Source of the DNA: Pyxidicoccus trucidator
Lineage (GTDB): Bacteria > Myxococcota > Myxococcia > Myxococcales > Myxococcaceae
NCBI RefSeq assembly: GCF_010894435.1
Contig: NZ_JAAIXZ010000004.1
Location: 1-64,000, forward strand
Reading direction: 5' to 3'
Length of the DNA stretch: 64,000 nt
Below the pieces are notes generated by a model, which made no database searches, was not told where the DNA came from, and was given only the letters and a program-made list of their open reading frames with translations. Below, piece by piece: positions 1,915 to 59,634 of the stretch (positions are counted from its first letter, which is position 1; each line of letters opens with the position of its first letter). The position numbers and the translations under genes were made by a program.

Positions 1915-2115
1915 TCAGTAGTGGGGTGGACGCTCCTGCTGCCGGGCGTCCACCAGGCCCGGGTCTCCCGCGAGCTTCTGCTTGAGCACCTCCATCTCCG
2001 CACGCAGCGCGGAGAGGACCTTCTGCTGGTCGTACAGCACGTCGCTCAGCTCCTGCAGCAGGTCCTGCTGCTGCATGTAGCGGAGTTCCAGCTCGGCAAT
2101 GCGCTTCTCGTCCAT
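1915..2115 (-). CDS. slyX: SlyX family protein
   Basis: A 66-residue coiled-coil protein. The pattern MDEKRIAELELRYMQQQDLL, then LSDVLYDQQKVLSALRAEME, then the C-terminal RPPHY is characteristic of SlyX. The family is small, cytoplasmic and coiled-coil, and its biochemical role is not established. The stop lies 4 nt beyond the stop of the upstream forward gene, so the two are convergent with no room for a separate terminator. Confidence 0.9.
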   Translation of the reverse strand: MDEKRIAELELRYMQQQDLLQELSDVLYDQQKVLSALRAEMEVLKQKLAGDPGLVDARQQERPPHY

Positions 2116-2180
2116 GGCTGGTTACCCTTAACGCGGAGCGGCCCTCCACGTCCCCTCCCGGCCGCCGATTCGTCCAGGTC

Positions 2181-2480
2181 ATGAACGTCCAGGAATACAT
2201 CCAGCGCTCCCGAGAGCTCCTCGCCCGGGGGCAGCCCGAGCTGGCGGAGTCCGCCCTCAGCGACGCCATCGACGCCGCCGTCGCGGCCGAGGACCTCATA
2301 TTGCTCACCCGCGCCCGCTTCGCGCTCGGAGAGCTGCTCTTCCATCAGGGGCGCGACGACGAGGCGCTCCCCTACCTGCAGGCCGTCGTCCGCACCGAGC
2401 GGGTGGATGGCTCCGTGGACGCCGAGGTGAAGGCCTCCGCGAAGATGCTCCGTCAGCTTCGCGGCACCGAGCCTCGCTGA
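2181..2480 (+). CDS. small TPR-repeat protein
   Basis: A 99-residue, wholly helical protein. Helix pairs such as REYIQRSRELLARGQPELAE-type and LLTRARFALGELLFHQGRDD-type segments fit about two tetratricopeptide repeats, a protein-protein interaction scaffold. No signal peptide or membrane segment is visible, so it is probably cytoplasmic. It lies divergent from slyX and convergent with the larger TPR gene that follows. The start has only a weak AGG upstream. Partner and role unknown. Confidence 0.75.
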   Translation: MNVQEYIQRSRELLARGQPELAESALSDAIDAAVAAEDLILLTRARFALGELLFHQGRDDEALPYLQAVVRTERVDGSVDAEVKASAKMLRQLRGTEPR

Positions 2481-2493
2481 CGCGGGCTCCACC

Positions 2494-3522
2494 TCAGGGG
2501 ATGCTGCACGACTGGCGGATGAGCTCCGGCTTGCCGGAGAAGCGCCGCTCCAGGTCCATCCGCGTCAGCCGGGCGTCGTTGATGCGCCCGCCCTCGAGCT
2601 GCATCGCGCACAGCGCCGCCAGGGCCTTGGGGTCCTCCAAATCCAGCCGGTCCGCCTGGCGCAGCGCCTCTTCCGCCGCCTCGACGTTTCCCAGCCGGAA
2701 CCACGCGAGCCCGAGCTCGAAATAGCCGACGCCCAGCCTCGGGTCCTCCTCTACCGCCTTTCGGAAGAGCTTCACTGCCTCCGCGTCCCGGCCCTCGCGC
2801 GTCCATACCCGGCCCTGCTCCACCAGTAGCCTGGAGCGCGGCAGCCGCCCCTGGAGCCCGTTCAGCACGGACCTCGCCTCGTCCCCTCGCTTCGCGGCGC
2901 TCAGCAGCCTCACGTAGCGCAGGGCCACCAGGGGGTCCGCCGGTGCCTTGACGTACGCTCGCCGCAGCGACTCGGCCGCTCCCTGCACGTCGCCGTCCTT
3001 CTCCTGCAGGTCCGCCCGGAGCAGGTCCGGCCGGGCGTCTCCTGGAGCCACCTGCGTCGCGCGCTCCAGTGAGGTGCTCACACACCGGTCCATCCGCTCC
3101 ACGTCGCAGATGCGCGCGAGCAGAAGCTGGTTCTCCACAGCGCGCGGGTCCCTTCGCTCCGCCTCCTTTGCCAGCTCGCGGGCCTCGGCCGGAGCACCTT
3201 CGAGCAGCAGCTCCGCGGCCTCACGCAACTCCGCGGGCGTGGCCTTCGGGTGCTCTCGCAGCGGCATCAGGAAGCGCACCCGCTCCTCGGCGGTCGTCGC
3301 CACGCGGGCGATGGCCAGCTCCTGCTCCGGCATGTTCCGAGGCAGGAAGAGGGGAATGAGGTGGATGAGCAGGGCGACGATGCATATCGCCAGCAATCGA
3401 CGCAGCCCCCGGTCCAGTCGACGCCAGCGCCGCGCGATCGGCCCTCGCGATTCGGCCCCTGCCGTCACCGACGAAGGGTCCACGCGCTCCTCCTGCTGCC
3501 GCTCTTCCAGCCCCACTTCCAT
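2494..3522 (-). CDS. membrane-anchored TPR protein
   Basis: A 342-residue protein with a basic, disordered N-terminus (about 1-40), one transmembrane helix (LLAICIVALLIHLIPLFL, about 45-62) and a long helical array of TPR-like units to the C-terminus, for example RDAEAVKLFRKAVEEDPRLG followed by VGYFELGLAWFRLGNVEAAE. The topology suggests a periplasmic TPR scaffold tethered to the inner membrane. The ATG at 3522 follows GGGGAGG; an upstream extension in the same frame is mostly antisense-like low-complexity and was rejected. Partners are unknown. Confidence 0.78.
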   Translation of the reverse strand: MEVGLEERQQEERVDPSSVTAGAESRGPIARRWRRLDRGLRRLLAICIVALLIHLIPLFLPRNMPEQELAIARVATTAEERVRFLMPLREHPKATPAELREAAELLLEGAPAEARELAKEAERRDPRAVENQLLLARICDVERMDRCVSTSLERATQVAPGDARPDLLRADLQEKDGDVQGAAESLRRAYVKAPADPLVALRYVRLLSAAKRGDEARSVLNGLQGRLPRSRLLVEQGRVWTREGRDAEAVKLFRKAVEEDPRLGVGYFELGLAWFRLGNVEAAEEALRQADRLDLEDPKALAALCAMQLEGGRINDARLTRMDLERRFSGKPELIRQSCSIP

Positions 3523-20650: not shown

Positions 20651-20688
20651 AACTAAGGGCTTAGTTGACGAACAACTAAGTCCTTAGT
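20651..20688 (+). promoter_or_regulatory. two palindromic operators for the BlaI-type repressor
   Basis: AACTAAG-GG-CTTAGTT (20651-20666) is a perfect palindrome with 7-bp arms. ACTAAG-TC-CTTAGT (20675-20688) is a second with 6-bp arms. Their centres are 23 bp apart and they lie 27-64 bp upstream of the repressor start codon. Paired dyads just upstream are the usual target of BlaI/MecI repressors, so autoregulation of the operon is likely. Confidence 0.82.
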
Positions 20689-20714
20689 AGTTTGCTGGCC
20701 ACGGAGGTACTCAC

Positions 20715-21113
20715 GTGGCCAGCAAACCCGAGCCCGAAGCGCCCCGGCCGTTGACGCCGGTGGAGCTCGAGCTGATGCAACTCGTGTGGAAGCAGGGCGA
20801 GGTGAGCGTGGCGGACGTGCTCGCCGCGCTGCCGCCTGAGCGCGCTCTCGCGTACACCTCGGTGTCCACCGTCCTGCGCATCCTCGAGCAGAAGGGCGTG
20901 GTGCGCAGCCGCAAGCAGGGGCGGGGACACCTGTACTCGGCGGTGCTGCCGCGCGAGGCGTACGAGGCGCAGAGCGTGCGCCACCTGGTGGACACCCTCT
21001 TCGAGGGCACGCCCTCCGCGCTGGTGGCGCGACTGGTGGAGGCCCTGCCGCTGGCCCCGGACGAGGTGGAGCAGATCCACCAGTTGCTCAAGGCGAAGGG
21101 GGGCAAGCCATGA
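20715..21113 (+). CDS. BlaI/MecI/CopY-family transcriptional repressor
   Basis: A 132-residue winged-helix repressor. The helix-turn-helix reads LTPVELELMQLVWKQGEVSV ... AYTSVSTVLRILEQKGVVRS with the wing RKQGRGHLYSAVLPREAYEA, and a helical dimerisation/cleavage region follows. In the family a membrane metallopeptidase inactivates the repressor by proteolysis. GTG start with GGAGGT six bases upstream. Two palindromic operators lie directly upstream, and the stop overlaps the start of an M56 peptidase gene (ATGA). Confidence 0.95.
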   Translation: MASKPEPEAPRPLTPVELELMQLVWKQGEVSVADVLAALPPERALAYTSVSTVLRILEQKGVVRSRKQGRGHLYSAVLPREAYEAQSVRHLVDTLFEGTPSALVARLVEALPLAPDEVEQIHQLLKAKGGKP

Positions 21114-22726
21114 GCGCCGCCCTCCGGGAGCTCGCATCATTATATGTAGCCGTGGCGCTGCTCCTGCCGGTGGCGCTGCTGCTGGCGCGGCTGGCGCTGG
21201 AGCTGCTCGCGAGGCTGGGCGCGCCGCTGTCCTCGCGCCAGTCGCTGCGCGTGGGCCGGGGGGCGCTGCTGCTGGCGCTCGTGCTGCCGGTGCTGGCCAC
21301 GGCGGCGCATGCGCTCGCTCCGGCCGGGCCCCTCTTCAGCTTCGAGCGCTCGGTGGCGCGCCACGCGGGGCGCCTGCCCGGGCCCACGTGGGACGCTCCC
21401 GCCGCGAGGCCCGCGCCGCGTCCTCGTGACACGGCGCCGGCCTCGGTGCCGTGGCTGCTCCTCGCCGCGTCTGTGATTGCCATGGGCGCGTCTGGCTTTA
21501 CCGCCCGTGCGCTCGTGCGACACCAGCGGCTGCTGCGGAGGCTGGAGTGCCTGCCTCGCGTGCGGGCCGTGGGCCGCGTCTCGGTGGTGCTGGGCGAGGA
21601 GGGCATGCCTGCCTTCTCCGCGTGGTTCCCGCGTCTGGGGAGCGGAGCGTCCGCGTGGGTGGTGGTGCCTCCGTCGGTGCTCGGTGACGCGGAGTCGCTG
21701 CGCCTCACGGTGCTGCACGAACTGCAGCACCACCGCCAGCGAGACACGCACCTGGCCTTCGCGCGCCTGGTCCTCACCGGCGCCTTCTTCTGGCATCCCG
21801 CCGCGCACGTGCTGTCTCGCTGGCTCGTCGCGCTGCAGGAGCTGGCGTGTGACGAGGCGCTGGTGGTGGGCGGCCGGGCCCAGGCGCACGCCTATGCACG
21901 CTGTCTGCTTCAAGCGGCGCTCACCGTTCCGGGCGCGCCGCCCCTTCCCGCCGGAGCCACCGGCATGTCCCACCCCACCGCGAGGAGAATCCAGATGCTG
22001 TTCCAACCCCGTCCCTTCCGCGCCCACGGCGCCGCGGCGTTGCTGGCCGCGCTCTTCCTGGTGCTCCTTCCCCTGGCGACGCTGGCCCAGGGCGCGGCGC
22101 GCGGCCGTACGGTGACGCTCGCCGAGGCGAAGGCGCTGGCCGAGTCCAGCCAGCCCTCCGGCGACCTGCCGGTGGTGGTGGACGCGAAGGTGGTGGAGCA
22201 GCTCAACCGGCTCATCGGCACGGAGAAGGGCCGCGCCTTCATGAAGCGCGCCCTGACGAACCTGGGCACGCAGCGGGACGCGCTGGTGACGGGCCTGCGC
22301 TCCAAGAGCCTTCCCGAGGGCCTGCTGGCCGTGGCGGTGGTGGAGTCGGCGGTGGCGAACCTGCCGGAGACCTCCACGAGTCCGTCGCTCGCCCCCGGCA
22401 TGCGCGGCGCGGGCGTGTGGATGTTCATCCCCGAGACGGCGCGTCGCTACGGCCTCGAAGTGAGCGCCACCCGCGACGAGCGGCTGGACGTGACGCGCGA
22501 GACGCAGGCCGCCGCGGCCCTGCTGTCGGACCTGCACGCGCGCTACAGCGACTGGCGGCTGGCGCTCGCGGCCTACAACCAGGGCGAGAAGAAGGTGGAC
22601 GAGGCGCTGGCCCAGGGCGGCAGCCGCGACGTGTCGGCGCTCATGGCCGCCGGCCGGCTCAACGACTACACCGCCACCGTGCAGGCCGGGCTGCTCATCG
22701 TCCGCAATCCGCACCTGCTGGACTGA
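21110..22726 (+). CDS. M56 (BlaR1-type) metallopeptidase fused to a lytic transglycosylase domain
   Basis: A 538-residue membrane protein. Hydrophobic helices at about 8-35, 50-70 and 113-128 precede a zinc metallopeptidase motif HELQHHRQRD (203-212) with ELACDEA (244-250) as the M56 partner motif; another helix lies at about 307-327. The C-terminal region (about 390-535) is not a penicillin-binding sensor but a transglycosylase/MltD-like domain with LPEGLLAVAVVESAVANL (Glu412 as candidate acid), GAGVWMFIPETARRYGL and AAYNQGE. It overlaps the BlaI-like repressor by 4 nt, so the two form one regulatory module for cell-wall status or antibiotic stress. The sensed signal is inference. Confidence 0.9.
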   Translation: MSAALRELASLYVAVALLLPVALLLARLALELLARLGAPLSSRQSLRVGRGALLLALVLPVLATAAHALAPAGPLFSFERSVARHAGRLPGPTWDAPAARPAPRPRDTAPASVPWLLLAASVIAMGASGFTARALVRHQRLLRRLECLPRVRAVGRVSVVLGEEGMPAFSAWFPRLGSGASAWVVVPPSVLGDAESLRLTVLHELQHHRQRDTHLAFARLVLTGAFFWHPAAHVLSRWLVALQELACDEALVVGGRAQAHAYARCLLQAALTVPGAPPLPAGATGMSHPTARRIQMLFQPRPFRAHGAAALLAALFLVLLPLATLAQGAARGRTVTLAEAKALAESSQPSGDLPVVVDAKVVEQLNRLIGTEKGRAFMKRALTNLGTQRDALVTGLRSKSLPEGLLAVAVVESAVANLPETSTSPSLAPGMRGAGVWMFIPETARRYGLEVSATRDERLDVTRETQAAAALLSDLHARYSDWRLALAAYNQGEKKVDEALAQGGSRDVSALMAAGRLNDYTATVQAGLLIVRNPHLLD

Positions 22727-22807: not shown

Positions 22808-25800
22808 ATGCTCCTGGAACCCACACCCCGTGCACCCTGGCTGCTGTCTGTCTGTCTTTTCCTCCTCGCGGTGAGCGGCGCCTGCGACTCGCGGGCGCCC
22901 GCTCCCGCACCGCCTCCCGGGCCCGTCGGCACCGTGGAGGCTCCGCTGGACCCTCCCACGCAGTTCGGCGAGGTGGCCTTCGTGGCGACGGGGCCGTGCT
23001 CCGCCTACGACTACAGCACCATCGACAACTGCTTCAACGACGAGAACCCGCAGCGGCCCAGCATCTTCCGCGAGCTGTCCGCGGCCTCGCGGCCCTACCG
23101 CGCCTCCTATTGGGATCCGCTGTCCCTCCAGCCCGCCGTGCTCTCCGGGGTGATGCAGCCCTTCCCGCCGACGGAGTACGACAACGGCTGGAGCACCCCG
23201 CGGCTGCCCGAGGAGAGCGACGCGGCCAACGCCATCCAGGTGCTGCCCTTCAACCGCGGCACCAACGACGGGCGAGTCTTCGTGCGCGGCGGCTGCCGGG
23301 GCTGCGCGGAGGGCTCCACGCTGTACACGTTCCGCCCCGAGCGGCTCGGCCACGACTTCCGCTACGACTTCGCCAGCAAGGGCACCGGGCTGGTGCAGCC
23401 CTCGCACGCCGTGGGGCTCCACCCCTTCGTGTACTTCAACCCGATGGCCACGGCGATGACGGCGAAGAACAACGGCGACTTCCCCGACGCGCTGCACAGC
23501 ACCACGTGCGAGGACTCGATGTCGGCCCTGGAGAAGGGCCTGCACGGGCGCAACCCCGTGGCGTGCAGGGCCCGCTACGACGTGGGCTCTCCGTTCGTCT
23601 CCGGTGACTGCTACGAGATGTCCCTCGTCTACGGCATGGCCGAGTCCACCGGCAGGCGCTGGGAGCTGCGCTCGGTGGACCTCACCGTCTTCGTGCGCGC
23701 CCCGAAGTCCCTCACCGCGGGGGACCCGGTGGGCGGCGGCACCGCGGGCTGGGGCCTGTGGGTCTACCCGCGCAACCCGGAGGGCGAGGTGAAGTCGCTG
23801 CCTGCCTGGGATTTGCCGCCGTTCCGTCCCTTCAACCCCCACGACTCGCCGTGGGGCGACATGAACTCGGGCTCCACGTACAGCATCCCCGGGACGCCGG
23901 ACACCATCGACTGGCGGCGCCTGTTCACCACGAATCCCGGCTTCCAGTGCTACACGGCGGTGCCGGTGTGGCCGTACCCCACGCCGCTCTACGTGCGGAA
24001 CACCTCGGCGTCCGCGCCGAAGTGGTGCCAGTTCTTCGACCGGCAGAGCTACCGGTCCTCCTTCCAGGTCGAGGACGACGAGGACGCCGTCATCGGCAAT
24101 GGCGGCACCTGGAATGGCGCCACGGGGTGGGGCGCGGGTGAGAAGCCCTACGCCCTCTTCGAGCCCGCGGTGAGCGGTGACGGGCGCATGCTCATCGTCA
24201 ACATGAACGGCCTCTACTACGCGACGGCGGACGACATCTGCCGCGCGTCCAGCTGGGGGCACTTCAAGCCCATCAGCATGCTGCCGATGGATTCGACGGC
24301 GAACTCCCGCTACGAGCTGGCGAAGTCCCAGGTCGTCAACGGCAGGCCGCAGCCCTTCCGGGACACGATGGGCAACGCCATCCCCTTCGGCGTGCGCAAC
24401 CAGGGCGCCTATCCCTGGCTGGACCGCGAGGGGAAGAACCTGTTCTTCGCCGCGAAGAACAACCCGCATGACGGCTACTACGCGCGCCAGGTGTTCGGCG
24501 TGAACCGGTTCACCAATGCCTCCTACCTGGACCAGTTGATTGGCGCGCCCGTCTACGATGCCGACCGCGCGAAGTTCAACCCGGACCGCGCGCCCGCGCA
24601 GTCCGTGACGGTGCTCGGCGCGTGGACGCGGGGCAAGGCCGTCATCCTCGACAACGGCCTCAGCATCAGCGACCTGGGTGGCAACAACGAGGACCAGTTC
24701 CAGCGCACCTACGACTTGCGCCTCTACGCGGGCGCCGACGTGAAGCTCACGCCCCACGGGGCCTCGCAAATCTTCTCGTTCGAGAACCAGCTCAACCACT
24801 TCGACGGCCTGCGGCCCACGCTGCCCTTCGACGTGGTGTGGAACGTCCAGGCCAACACCCAGCGCAACACGGAGGTGGCCTTCGACGACTACCTCAACAA
24901 GCGCGCCTTCGTGGTGGCTCACATGAACGCGGCCATGCGCATGGACGTGTCACCCCACGGGCCGTGGCGGGCGGAGACCTTCCCCCAGGACGGCTTCGTG
25001 CCCATGCGTGACGCCTGGGCCTACGTGCGCGGCGGCGGCGTCGCGGACTTCCGCTTCAAGCGCAACCCGCTGGCCCAGAACGCCGCCACGGGCCACCCGC
25101 TGTTCGGGACGGATGGCCCCCAGCCTCCTGGCTCCGTGCGGCTGCGCGGCGGTGCGCGCATCGAGCCCGTGGCACTCGGCGGCGTCAGCGGCAAGGGCGT
25201 CTGGCTCGACGGCCGCAACGACTTCATGGACATGGGCTATCCCGTCGATGCGTCGCGACGCGACTGGCTCTTCGGCATCTGGCTGGACTCGCGCCAGGAG
25301 AACAAGCTCAAGCCCGGCATGACGCTCGCGCGCAGCCTGCCGCGGACCATCTTCTACTTCTCGGACAACTCCTGGGTCGGGCTCGTCCAGGTGAAGGACT
25401 CCGGCGGCAACGTGTGGCACGAGCTCGCCGTGTACAACGGCTCGACGAGCACCTCGTACACCGTCAACCTGGGCTCGCTGGTGCAGGCCGGCCGCTACTT
25501 CCACTTCGGGATGAAAATCTATACCGAGGCCGGCCAGCGCACGCTCGCGTTCTACATCAATGGCACATGGCACTCGACGCTGACGGTCTCCTCGCGCGAC
25601 GTGGGCTTCGACCCGATGTGGAACTCGATGAATGGCTGGACGTGGATGACGGTGGGAGACCCGGGTCCCGCCTTCGTCCCGGGCCAGTCGCGTCTGCCCT
25701 TCTACGGCTGGGTGGACGAGCTGCGCATCTACGCGCTGTCTTCATCGGATGTGCGGCAGCCCTGGACCGAGGAGCTCATCTGCAACCAGGCGCTGGGGAC

Positions 25801-26320
25801 GACGGTGGACCTGTCCATCCGCGACTCCGAGCAGTGGCACCCGGCGCTCGACGAGCTCCGCTGGCGCTCGTACCAGTACCCCGGCCCGCGCCGTGCCATT
25901 TGCGAGCAACTGCGGCTGGCCTCGTACGTGGAGCCGCTCGACTACCCGGCTCAGTACGGCCAGCACCTCTGCATCGACCGCGTCCACAAGAACCCCCGGG
26001 GCTCGACGAGCCTGTCCAACCGTTGCATGCGCTCGGGGATGATGGGGCTGCCCACGCTCCAGGCGGTGGTGCCCCGGCCCGACACCAGCGCCACCGCCTT
26101 CTGCCTGTCCTGCCACACGGGGACGGCGCCCCTGCCGGGCCTGCGGCTGGGCGCGCTGACGGCGGGGACGGGCCCGCGCTTCCAGGACCGCCGACGTCAG
26201 CCAATGAACGTCCCGGCGGTGCTGGGCGGTGTCGTTCCGCCGTGGCTGACCACGGGCCTCAACCAGCCGGACGGCACCCGCACGCTGGACCACTACTTCG
26301 ACCACTTCCCGGCGCCCTGA
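22808..26320 (+). CDS. large secreted protein with LamG-like domain and C-terminal CxxCH
   Basis: A 1170-residue protein with an N-terminal signal peptide (to about 26; Cys26 suggests a possible lipoprotein although the lipobox is imperfect). The first 750 residues are a beta/aromatic-rich region with scattered Cys pairs. Around 790-990 there is a concanavalin/LamG-like module (VWLDGRNDFMDMGYPVDA, RTLAFYINGTWHSTLTV, GWVDELRIYALSSSDV). Near the C-terminus FCLSCHTG is a heme-c type CxxCH motif. It precedes a phosphoesterase and a TonB-type receptor gene on the same strand. No family was recognised as a whole; a surface carbohydrate-binding or electron-transfer role is conjecture. Confidence 0.83.
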   Translation: MLLEPTPRAPWLLSVCLFLLAVSGACDSRAPAPAPPPGPVGTVEAPLDPPTQFGEVAFVATGPCSAYDYSTIDNCFNDENPQRPSIFRELSAASRPYRASYWDPLSLQPAVLSGVMQPFPPTEYDNGWSTPRLPEESDAANAIQVLPFNRGTNDGRVFVRGGCRGCAEGSTLYTFRPERLGHDFRYDFASKGTGLVQPSHAVGLHPFVYFNPMATAMTAKNNGDFPDALHSTTCEDSMSALEKGLHGRNPVACRARYDVGSPFVSGDCYEMSLVYGMAESTGRRWELRSVDLTVFVRAPKSLTAGDPVGGGTAGWGLWVYPRNPEGEVKSLPAWDLPPFRPFNPHDSPWGDMNSGSTYSIPGTPDTIDWRRLFTTNPGFQCYTAVPVWPYPTPLYVRNTSASAPKWCQFFDRQSYRSSFQVEDDEDAVIGNGGTWNGATGWGAGEKPYALFEPAVSGDGRMLIVNMNGLYYATADDICRASSWGHFKPISMLPMDSTANSRYELAKSQVVNGRPQPFRDTMGNAIPFGVRNQGAYPWLDREGKNLFFAAKNNPHDGYYARQVFGVNRFTNASYLDQLIGAPVYDADRAKFNPDRAPAQSVTVLGAWTRGKAVILDNGLSISDLGGNNEDQFQRTYDLRLYAGADVKLTPHGASQIFSFENQLNHFDGLRPTLPFDVVWNVQANTQRNTEVAFDDYLNKRAFVVAHMNAAMRMDVSPHGPWRAETFPQDGFVPMRDAWAYVRGGGVADFRFKRNPLAQNAATGHPLFGTDGPQPPGSVRLRGGARIEPVALGGVSGKGVWLDGRNDFMDMGYPVDASRRDWLFGIWLDSRQENKLKPGMTLARSLPRTIFYFSDNSWVGLVQVKDSGGNVWHELAVYNGSTSTSYTVNLGSLVQAGRYFHFGMKIYTEAGQRTLAFYINGTWHSTLTVSSRDVGFDPMWNSMNGWTWMTVGDPGPAFVPGQSRLPFYGWVDELRIYALSSSDVRQPWTEELICNQALGTTVDLSIRDSEQWHPALDELRWRSYQYPGPRRAICEQLRLASYVEPLDYPAQYGQHLCIDRVHKNPRGSTSLSNRCMRSGMMGLPTLQAVVPRPDTSATAFCLSCHTGTAPLPGLRLGALTAGTGPRFQDRRRQPMNVPAVLGGVVPPWLTTGLNQPDGTRTLDHYFDHFPAP

Positions 26321-58431: not shown

Positions 58432-59634
58432 ATGTCCACGCCGTACGCCCGACTCCTCCTGCTGGCCTGTGCCCTCCTCGTCACGGCCTGTCCGCGCTCC
58501 ACCCGCGCCCCCATCACGAAGCCCGAGGAGGCGCTCGTTCCCGTCTCCCGCTCGCTGGAGCTGCGGGACGACGGCGAGCCCGCGGCGCTGCGGGCCGCCA
58601 TCGCGCAGAGCGTGGTGTGGCTGCGGGCGAGGCCGGCGGACCAGCGCTTCGTCTACGGCCGGCGCGAAGTCACCGCCGCCGTGCTGCGGGCCGCGCTGGA
58701 GCGCCTGCACTCGCGCCTCCGCGACGGCATGACTCCCGAGGAGCTGTCGGCGCGGGTGCTCGAGGACTTCGAGCCGATGGAGGCCGCCGGAGGCGAGGAC
58801 GGGCAGGTGCTGTTCACCGGCTACTACGAGCCCTCGCTCGACGCGAGCCTCACGCGGACGGACGAGTACACGGTGCCCATCCACGGGCTCCCGGAGGATT
58901 TGGTGGAGGTGCCGCTGGAGGCGTTCGCGGAGCGCTTCGCGGCGGAGCGCGTCTTCGGGCGGCTCGACGGGAAGAAGGTGGTGCCCTACTGGACGCGCAA
59001 CGAGATTCGCGGCGGGAGGCTGCAGGGGCGGGGGCTGGAGCTGGCGTGGGCGAAGGACCCCGTGGCGCTCTTCTTCACGGAGGTGCAGGGGAGCGGCACG
59101 CTGCGGCTGCCCGACGGGAGCCAGCGCCGCATCGGCTACGCGGCGTCGAATGGCAGGCCCTACCGGAGCATCGGCTCGCTGCTCATCCAGGAAGGCGTCA
59201 TCCCCCGCGAGGCCATGTCGATGCAGGCGCTGCGCTCGTGGCTGGCGGCGAACCCGGCGCAGTGCAGCCGGGTGCTCGACTTCAACGAGTCCTATGTCTT
59301 CTTCCGCTTCCTGGCGGGCGCCTCGGAGGGCTCGTTGGGGAGGCCGGTGACCCCGGGCCGCTCCATCGCCACGGATGCGCGGCTGTTCCCGAAGGGCGGG
59401 CTGGCCTTCATCCAGACGGAGCGTCCGGTGAAGCTGGCGGACGGCACGGTGCAGTGGAGGCCGCTGACGCGCTTCATGCTCAACCAGGACACGGGCGGCG
59501 CCATCCGTGGCGCGGGCCGGGTGGATGTCTACTGGGGCCCCGGCCCGGAGGCGGAGCTGTCCGCGGGGATGATGAAGCAGCAGGGCCGGCTGCTGTTCCT
59601 CGTCCCGCGCGCGGTGCCGGCGACTACTCACTGA
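58432..59634 (+). CDS. mltA: membrane-bound lytic murein transglycosylase A
   Basis: A 400-residue lipoprotein (LLACALLVTAC) of the MltA family, cleaving peptidoglycan glycan strands to 1,6-anhydromuropeptides at the outer membrane. Motifs: FTGYYEPSLDAS, YWTRNEIRGGRLQGRGLELA, VALFFTEVQGSGTLRLPDGS and the C-terminal 3D-type domain with FIQTERPVKLADG, RFMLNQDTGGAIRGAGRVDV and YWGPGPEAE. Length is typical. Its 3' end overlaps the convergent OsmC-tail ORF by 11 nt. Confidence 0.93.
   Translation: MSTPYARLLLLACALLVTACPRSTRAPITKPEEALVPVSRSLELRDDGEPAALRAAIAQSVVWLRARPADQRFVYGRREVTAAVLRAALERLHSRLRDGMTPEELSARVLEDFEPMEAAGGEDGQVLFTGYYEPSLDASLTRTDEYTVPIHGLPEDLVEVPLEAFAERFAAERVFGRLDGKKVVPYWTRNEIRGGRLQGRGLELAWAKDPVALFFTEVQGSGTLRLPDGSQRRIGYAASNGRPYRSIGSLLIQEGVIPREAMSMQALRSWLAANPAQCSRVLDFNESYVFFRFLAGASEGSLGRPVTPGRSIATDARLFPKGGLAFIQTERPVKLADGTVQWRPLTRFMLNQDTGGAIRGAGRVDVYWGPGPEAELSAGMMKQQGRLLFLVPRAVPATTH

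Follow-up and report, generated by a model that had tools for sequence, protein, structure and literature searches.

Positions 20651-22726 of the stretch of Pyxidicoccus trucidator DNA analysed here (the window, 64,000 nt of a genome of 12.67 Mb, G000) hold a two-gene operon preceded by a pair of inverted repeats. The first gene (20715-21113, forward strand, GTG start) encodes a repressor of 132 aa, assigned by its Pfam profile to the BlaI/Penicillinase_R family (PF03965, E 1.3e-31, 109.8 bits against a gathering cut-off of 22.6), which scores below the cut-offs of the NCBI models for BlaI, MecI and CopY. Its stop codon and the ATG of the second gene share the bases ATGA, a 4-base overlap, and the second gene (21110-22726, same strand) encodes a protein of 538 aa in which the Pfam profiles recognise an M56 peptidase (Peptidase_M56, E 1.1e-12, 48.2 bits, cut-off 31) fused to a lytic transglycosylase domain (SLT, PF01464, E 1.7e-17, residues 397-507, 63.5 bits, cut-off 21.3). 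The NCBI equivalog for murein transglycosylase D (MltD), NF008050, was also matched (E 3.2e-16), at 58.7 bits far under its cut-off of 508. A previous, sequence-only reading of this locus had described two perfect dyads upstream of a BlaI-like repressor, the overlap of its stop with the start of the M56 gene and, in the place of the penicillin sensor of BlaR1 and MecR1, a transglycosylase-like domain. All of this was borne out by the exact pattern search, by the shared ATGA and by the M56 and SLT profiles, which exceeded their curated cut-offs with no penicillin-binding match in the protein. The observation was therefore confirmed, and the interpretation built on it was partly supported, as discussed below.

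Two conserved putative operators, largely confined to one operon

The two dyads, located by pattern search and conservation, are ACTAAGGGCTTAGT at 20652-20665 and ACTAAGTCCTTAGT at 20675-20688, in which the half-sites ACTAAG and CTTAGT flank GG and TC, respectively. The right end of dyad 1 overlaps TTGACG, a -35-like hexamer at 20665-20670, and dyad 2, 23 bp from dyad 1, sits in the -35/-10 spacer of the presumed promoter TTGACG-N17-TAGTTT (20665-20693, forward strand), which was read by eye and is conserved in the alignment. No terminator was returned by the terminator/consensus promoter scan. Both in the window and in the whole genome, the two dyads are the sole matches to the exact pattern ACTAAGNNCTTAGT. 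From the base composition of the window, ~0.06 exact and ~0.5 relaxed sites (ACTAAN4TTAGT) were expected in the genome, and the reversed control pattern occurred 2 times in the exact and 8 times in the relaxed form; chance background is thus commoner than composition suggests, so that the case for the operators rests on their position, pairing and conservation. When up to 2 mismatches were allowed, the pattern fitted 10 places in the genome, two of them the dyads of the operon and one located at a paralogous repressor, compared with 92 places for the reversed control. Moreover, the relaxed pair with its 23-bp spacing was found in 17/17 orthologues having sequence upstream of the repressor, a conserved position from which we read the paired dyads as putative operators of the repressor of their own operon.

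The same patterns were followed in a family sample of 96 whole genomes, 53 of which bear the operon. The exact dyad occurs 55 times, in 39 of the 96 genomes, and 52 of these occurrences lie at most 700 bp upstream of the fusion gene. As for the rest, one, in G023, where the contig is split, is found 5' of the same repressor, one (G006) 5' of an open repressor frame where the M56-SLT gene is no longer matched, and a single one (G064) is unconnected with the operon and precedes a polysaccharide deacetylase. Relaxed sites number exactly two in 51 of the operon genomes, one in one and three in one, against none in 37 of the other 43 genomes and one to four in the remaining six; among the relaxed sites listed, a pair 23 bp apart was read by eye in all 33 operon genomes covered and in G006. 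Because 51 of the 53 genomes hold exactly two sites, the circuit seems to serve its own operon alone. The sequence-only reading, in which the operators appeared to control only this operon, is supported on this point: at such operator specificity the conserved target in the 53 genomes is the operon alone, and the question of a regulon is largely answered. A wider regulon was sought in the 96 genomes and not found, the G064 dyad being the sole exact one away from the operon.

The G064 site (L060, ~2109-3130; G064:C1:12402080) comprises the exact dyad and a second, imperfect dyad 23 bp away, both before the polysaccharide deacetylase, and may be a promoter that was captured and now controls a wall-modifying gene. 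Homologues of this deacetylase (E up to 1e-30) are present in 6/96 genomes, G064 included, and in G079 and G033 (the latter a fragment) they coexist with the operon, each of these genomes having two relaxed sites, both at the operon. As the deacetylases of G079 and G033 have no operator, we treated G064 as a single promoter capture. Separately, ACTAACYRGTTAGT dyads are repeated at G040:C3:464700 and at G043:C4:30573-30683 and 211524, in two genomes without the fusion, and are perhaps sites of another regulator. Two decayed copies of the operon were also observed, one in G006 (L059), where the repressor frame and the operators are kept and the M56-SLT gene is unmatched, and one in G016 (L061), where the fusion gene is split into two overlapping frames.

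The M56 and transglycosylase-like parts of the fused protein

The zinc-protease core (21659-22000, forward strand), defined by profile and alignment, contains H203ELQH207, E244xxxD248 and the pair R292/R293. In a 21-row alignment, H203, E204, H207, E244, D248, R292 and R293 are invariant, and HELQHHRQRD spans residues 203-212 just as previously read. These residues correspond by motif (HEXXH, EXXXD, Arg pair) to H201, H205, E242 and D246 and to the Arg293/Arg294 pair of BlaR1 (PMC9834060). Helices are predicted at residues 3-35, 42-69, 115-146 and 306-331, the fourth one (22025-22102, forward strand) being drawn from the AlphaFold helices and from the distribution of positive charges judged by eye; this pattern suggests a BlaR1-type topology in which the SLT domain would be extracytoplasmic. 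The presumed periplasmic loop that joins helices 2 and 3, EL1 (residues 70-114; 21317-21451, forward strand), delimited by conservation and by analogy with BlaR1, carries the stretch PxxPxFxFERS at residues 71-81, of which P71, P74, F76, F78, E79, R80 and S81 are identical in 18/18 full-length rows, the mean identity being 0.466 for EL1 and 0.309 for residues 87-114 of the same loop. In BlaR1, EL1 fills the active site of the sensor and is displaced by the beta-lactam (PMC9834060), and by analogy a resembling contact between EL1 and the SLT domain may exist in the fusion. The sequence search against BlaR1 gave a weak match (8exs, E 0.11), and BlaR1 was not among the matches listed in the fold searches with the full-length model, which is weak (mean predicted local distance difference test score, pLDDT, 66.2); as the zinc domain is poorly predicted, this absence is uninformative.

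The C-terminal part (residues 351-538; 22160-22723, forward strand) is a presumed periplasmic domain with a predicted SLT/MltD fold, delimited by profile, fold prediction and alignment. A profile search of the PDB identified MltD (8rhe, E 3.2e-15), and the fold predicted for this part (mean pLDDT 84.6) matched MltD with Z 18.3 and a root mean square deviation of 2.3 over 172 residues; no LysM match was obtained in Pfam at E up to 1 in the fusion protein. In the 18 full-length rows, the mean pairwise identity is highest in this region, 0.805 for residues 401-538 against 0.762 for residues 198-262 of the zinc core. The elements singled out in the sequence-only reading, Glu412, GAGVWMFIPETARRYGL and AAYNQGE, are all present, and the catalytic motifs are conserved across the orthologues, the catalytic Glu followed by Ser, together with AYNxG, being found in 22/22 rows; the residues kept are E412, S413, Y489, N490 and Y520. 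A transglycosylase profile, the catalytic Glu and an MltD-like predicted fold coincide in this domain.

The active site is altered when compared with 31 other transglycosylases, made up of 11 SLT matches of the same genome (which has 12 besides the fusion, one weak match being left out) and 20 SLT-only frames from outside the family. The 22 fused rows have Pro429 where 31/31 of the others have Ser, and Met438 where 31/31 have Gln, and they have Arg516 (Lys or His in orthologues) where 29/31 have Glu, the other two being gapped. In line with the second replacement, the 'GLMQ'-type motif reads GVWM, with the usual Gln missing, a point that had escaped the sequence-only reading, and an insert of 8 residues follows the catalytic Glu-Ser in all 22 fused rows. 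By fold the domain belongs to the SLT family, although it lacks part of the active-site signature usual there. What is new is that, as judged from the alignment, the fused domain keeps the catalytic Glu, the Ser and AYNxG, yet is without three residues usual in transglycosylases. Two of these positions, 429 and 516, we take to be the equivalents of Ser490 and Glu580 of LtgA, on a reading of the motifs and on Slt70 alignments. Both LtgA residues are contacted by the inhibitor bulgecin (PMC5372988), and the GLMQ motif has been called essential for the architecture of the active site, as has the Ser that follows the Glu (PMC550655). A site that is altered and still strongly constrained is less suggestive of decay than of a receptor or of an enzyme with changed specificity, and the replacement of three usual residues speaks more for a binding site put to a new use than for an ordinary lytic enzyme; the domain may have some residual or altered lytic activity.

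Distribution and neighbourhood of the fusion

The scan of genome contigs, which reaches only close relatives, returned 21 loci, 20 of them titled Myxococcus, Pyxidicoccus, Corallococcus, Archangium or Myxococcaceae. The twenty-first (L011) bears the title Comamonas sp. KCTC 72670; its copy of the operon is 75% identical and has the same operator pair, and the record is probably mislabelled or contaminated. In the family sample, the fusion was found in 53/96 genomes, in 48 as one long match and in 5 in pieces, the latter being explained by contig ends or by a broken frame (G016). The search was extended to 195 genomes of the phylum, of which 99 do not belong to the family, with 7 first-look candidates scored per genome, and among the matches listed none outside the family covers the M56 part. 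The 20 SLT-only frames from these outside genomes, which stood near the top of the list and were not strictly the best (G141, G140, G145, G169 and others were skipped), had neither an HExxH motif nor an M56 match at E 1e-3. Similarly, 52 plasmid records had a match, none of which covers 80% of the fusion protein. Independent M56-SLT fusions may exist beyond the groups searched.

Just downstream of the operon, the window holds a frame of 1170 aa (22808-26320) with no Pfam match. This frame was considered as a co-regulated gene and rejected, as it is unmatched in the other 21 loci: among the 22 loci, in which at most ~4 kb of downstream sequence was covered, the window alone has it. On the other side, a gene for a FAD monooxygenase, which sits upstream of the operators, is matched in 11/22 loci including the window. 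The only MltA match of the genome is at 58810-59307 of the window, 36 kb from the operon, and the distance from the fusion to MltA is ~12-17 kb in G077, G063, G060 and G076. For G077 this distance is ~15 kb and for G063 ~13 kb; both genomes have a single MltA match, and in both the fusion is the final SLT match along the chromosome.

This gene order can be compared with that of Myxococcus xanthus, in which 14 putative transglycosylases have been knocked out (PMC11444678, PMC12265050). There MXAN_7318 (K1515_01440) is listed as 'Slt/MltD/MltE, LTG family 1', MltA being MXAN_7308, ten tags off, and MXAN_0754 is listed as 'LTG family unknown' (PMC11444678). From the proximity to MltA and the last-SLT position, MXAN_7318 is probably the M. 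xanthus orthologue of the fusion, so identified by gene order, and a knockout of the orthologue probably exists already. The 13 knockouts other than agmT kept gliding (PMC11444678), and the sporulation screen singled out two other genes (PMC11444678, PMC12265050). The term 'M56' appears in the main text of neither paper, nor 'BlaR' in that of PMC11444678, which was the only paper found for the locus tag MXAN_7318 and its neighbours. In the papers listed from the literature searched, which omits most subscription journals, no description of an M56-transglycosylase fusion was recognised.

Interpretation and comparison with known systems

Taking these data together, we lean towards a transglycosylase-derived glycan sensor in a private, autoregulated BlaI-M56 operon working by a BlaR1-like route, rather than towards an ordinary wall-remodelling enzyme. 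A dimer of the repressor would occupy each of the two dyads covering the promoter and keep the operon low; the fusion would cross the membrane with four helices and have its zinc protease in the cytoplasm and, in the periplasm, a transglycosylase fold with an altered site, and this periplasmic domain, most likely a receptor, would bind glycan strands of peptidoglycan, muropeptides or a transglycosylase inhibitor. Binding of the ligand, perhaps by displacing the conserved EL1 stretch, would activate the zinc protease, and the active protease would cleave the repressor, with derepression of the operon. We infer the topology, the activation and the cleavage of the repressor from BlaR1, as we infer the signal, the proteolysis and the induction. 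The more specific claim of a one-component transmembrane receptor, in which a transglycosylase turned into a sensor of peptidoglycan or of an inhibitor drives the site-specific proteolysis of a dedicated repressor, is made tentatively and falls a little short of what we would call probable.

Several points weigh against a sensor of this kind. The retained Glu, Ser413, Tyr489, Asn490 and Tyr520 fit an enzyme, and among the three replacements the Ser column is the least sure, as it hinges on the placement of the insert in a region (residues 418-434) with pLDDT <50, where the role of the lost Ser could be taken by Ser426, which is invariant. The poor model of the zinc domain leaves the topology resting on predicted helices, and the presumed promoter is absent from the output of the consensus promoter scan. 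Cleavage of the BlaI-type repressor of S. aureus occurs at an Asn-Phe bond (PMC9834060); the repressor of the operon has no asparagine at all, so a cleavage site of this type is absent. Finally, as the operator does not consistently precede any other gene, a circuit whose SLT domain only senses would have no evident gain, which favours a retained enzymatic output or another substrate of the M56 protease.

The strongest alternative, which we nevertheless regard as less likely, is that the SLT part of the fusion still functions as a lytic transglycosylase tethered to the membrane and is itself the output: under wall stress the protease would cleave the repressor, and more of the enzyme would then be made. 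With the operon as its own only conserved target, the effector should be inside the operon, and the conservation of E412, S413, AYNxG and Tyr520 in the orthologues aligned, in what is the most conserved region of the protein, is what such an enzyme would show. Its products could even help to release the repressor, in the way that a peptidoglycan-derived dipeptide, a coactivator for BlaI, has been reported to destabilise BlaI/MecI-DNA complexes (PMC3305447). Against it, the Ser, Gln and Glu replaced in the fused rows are present in the 31 other transglycosylases, bar the two gaps in the Glu column, and the missing Gln belongs to a motif called essential (PMC550655). The interpretation given in the sequence-only reading stood in part: the BlaR1-like architecture, the catalytic Glu and the self-contained operon are supported, and its proposal that the sensor doubles as a wall-remodelling enzyme is weakened by the three replaced residues.

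Distinctly less probable is a system with no soluble ligand, in which the SLT domain serves only to tether the protease to peptidoglycan and to signal mechanical or spatial changes in the wall, or in which the protease has substrates other than the repressor. Groove Tyr and Asn kept within an altered catalytic surround, and an operator consistently common to no other gene, would suit this explanation, whereas the conservation of EL1 suggests a loop-domain contact as in BlaR1. As for an ordinary beta-lactam-responsive BlaI/BlaR1 system, to which the union of BlaI and M56 partners in one operon might point, almost no weight can be given to it and the identity as a beta-lactam receptor was rejected, because the Pfam scan of the fusion shows no penicillin-binding domain, the NCBI model blaR1_generic, which has a cut-off of 400, gives 18 bits and no conservation of the downstream gene was seen among the loci searched.

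The glycan sensor that we favour would, if true, show a general route by which a wall enzyme becomes a receptor on an M56 protease. It would make the sensing of the glycan part of peptidoglycan from inside the cell a directly testable question, and equally testable whether BlaI-M56 pairs with other C-termini form a wider class of envelope sensors. Three more such pairs are present in the same genome, on C3 (~360-361.5 kb, L037), C12 (~197-199 kb, L035) and C22 (~108.7-110 kb, L036). The C3 and C22 pairs resemble the fusion operon in having two dyads, read by eye, 22 bp apart around a TTGAC hexamer, and the C12 pair has a related dyad pair, spaced otherwise. Their half-sites (ACGAA, ACGAC, GACTAC) differ from those of the fusion operon, which suggests that the four circuits do not cross-talk. 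Their M56 C-termini carry no SLT domain: that of C22 is TonB_C, that of C3 a weak repeat below cut-off, and that of C12 is unmatched. Contig C13 carries a fifth match to Penicillinase_R (23.4 bits), with no M56 gene in the part of the contig that was read.

As a transglycosylase, the domain is best matched in fold and sequence by MltD (PDB 8rhe/8rhf/8rhi), with which it shares the catalytic Glu, the Ser after it, AYNxG and the Tyr of the ETxxY region. It differs from MltD in having no LysM match, in being joined to a membrane protease, in the replacement of the active-site Ser, Gln and Glu, and in the 8-residue insert after the catalytic Glu. As a regulatory system, the operon is of the BlaI-M56 kind and is not a beta-lactam receptor. 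With BlaI-BlaR1 and MecI-MecR1 of Staphylococcus aureus and Bacillus licheniformis it shares a Penicillinase_R-family repressor paired with an M56 membrane protease, the HExxH...ExxxD motif and the Arg pair, four helices (predicted, the C-terminal domain presumably lying outside), a conserved stretch in the loop that joins the second helix to the third, and dyads over the promoter. By contrast, its sensor is a transglycosylase fold and not a penicillin-binding one, the operon has no beta-lactamase or PBP gene, the SHPTARR stretch has by eye no Phe where BlaR1 has its Ser283-Phe284 autocleavage site, and the repressor lacks the Asn-Phe cleavage site. BlaR1-type receptors are known for the sensing of beta-lactams by a penicillin-binding fold; here, a second wall-enzyme fold is found in the same place, conserved over much of a bacterial family and with signs of lost normal catalysis. 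If our reading is true, the receptor would be the glycan-strand counterpart of BlaR1, by which Gram-negative predators would read the state of the glycan across the inner membrane.

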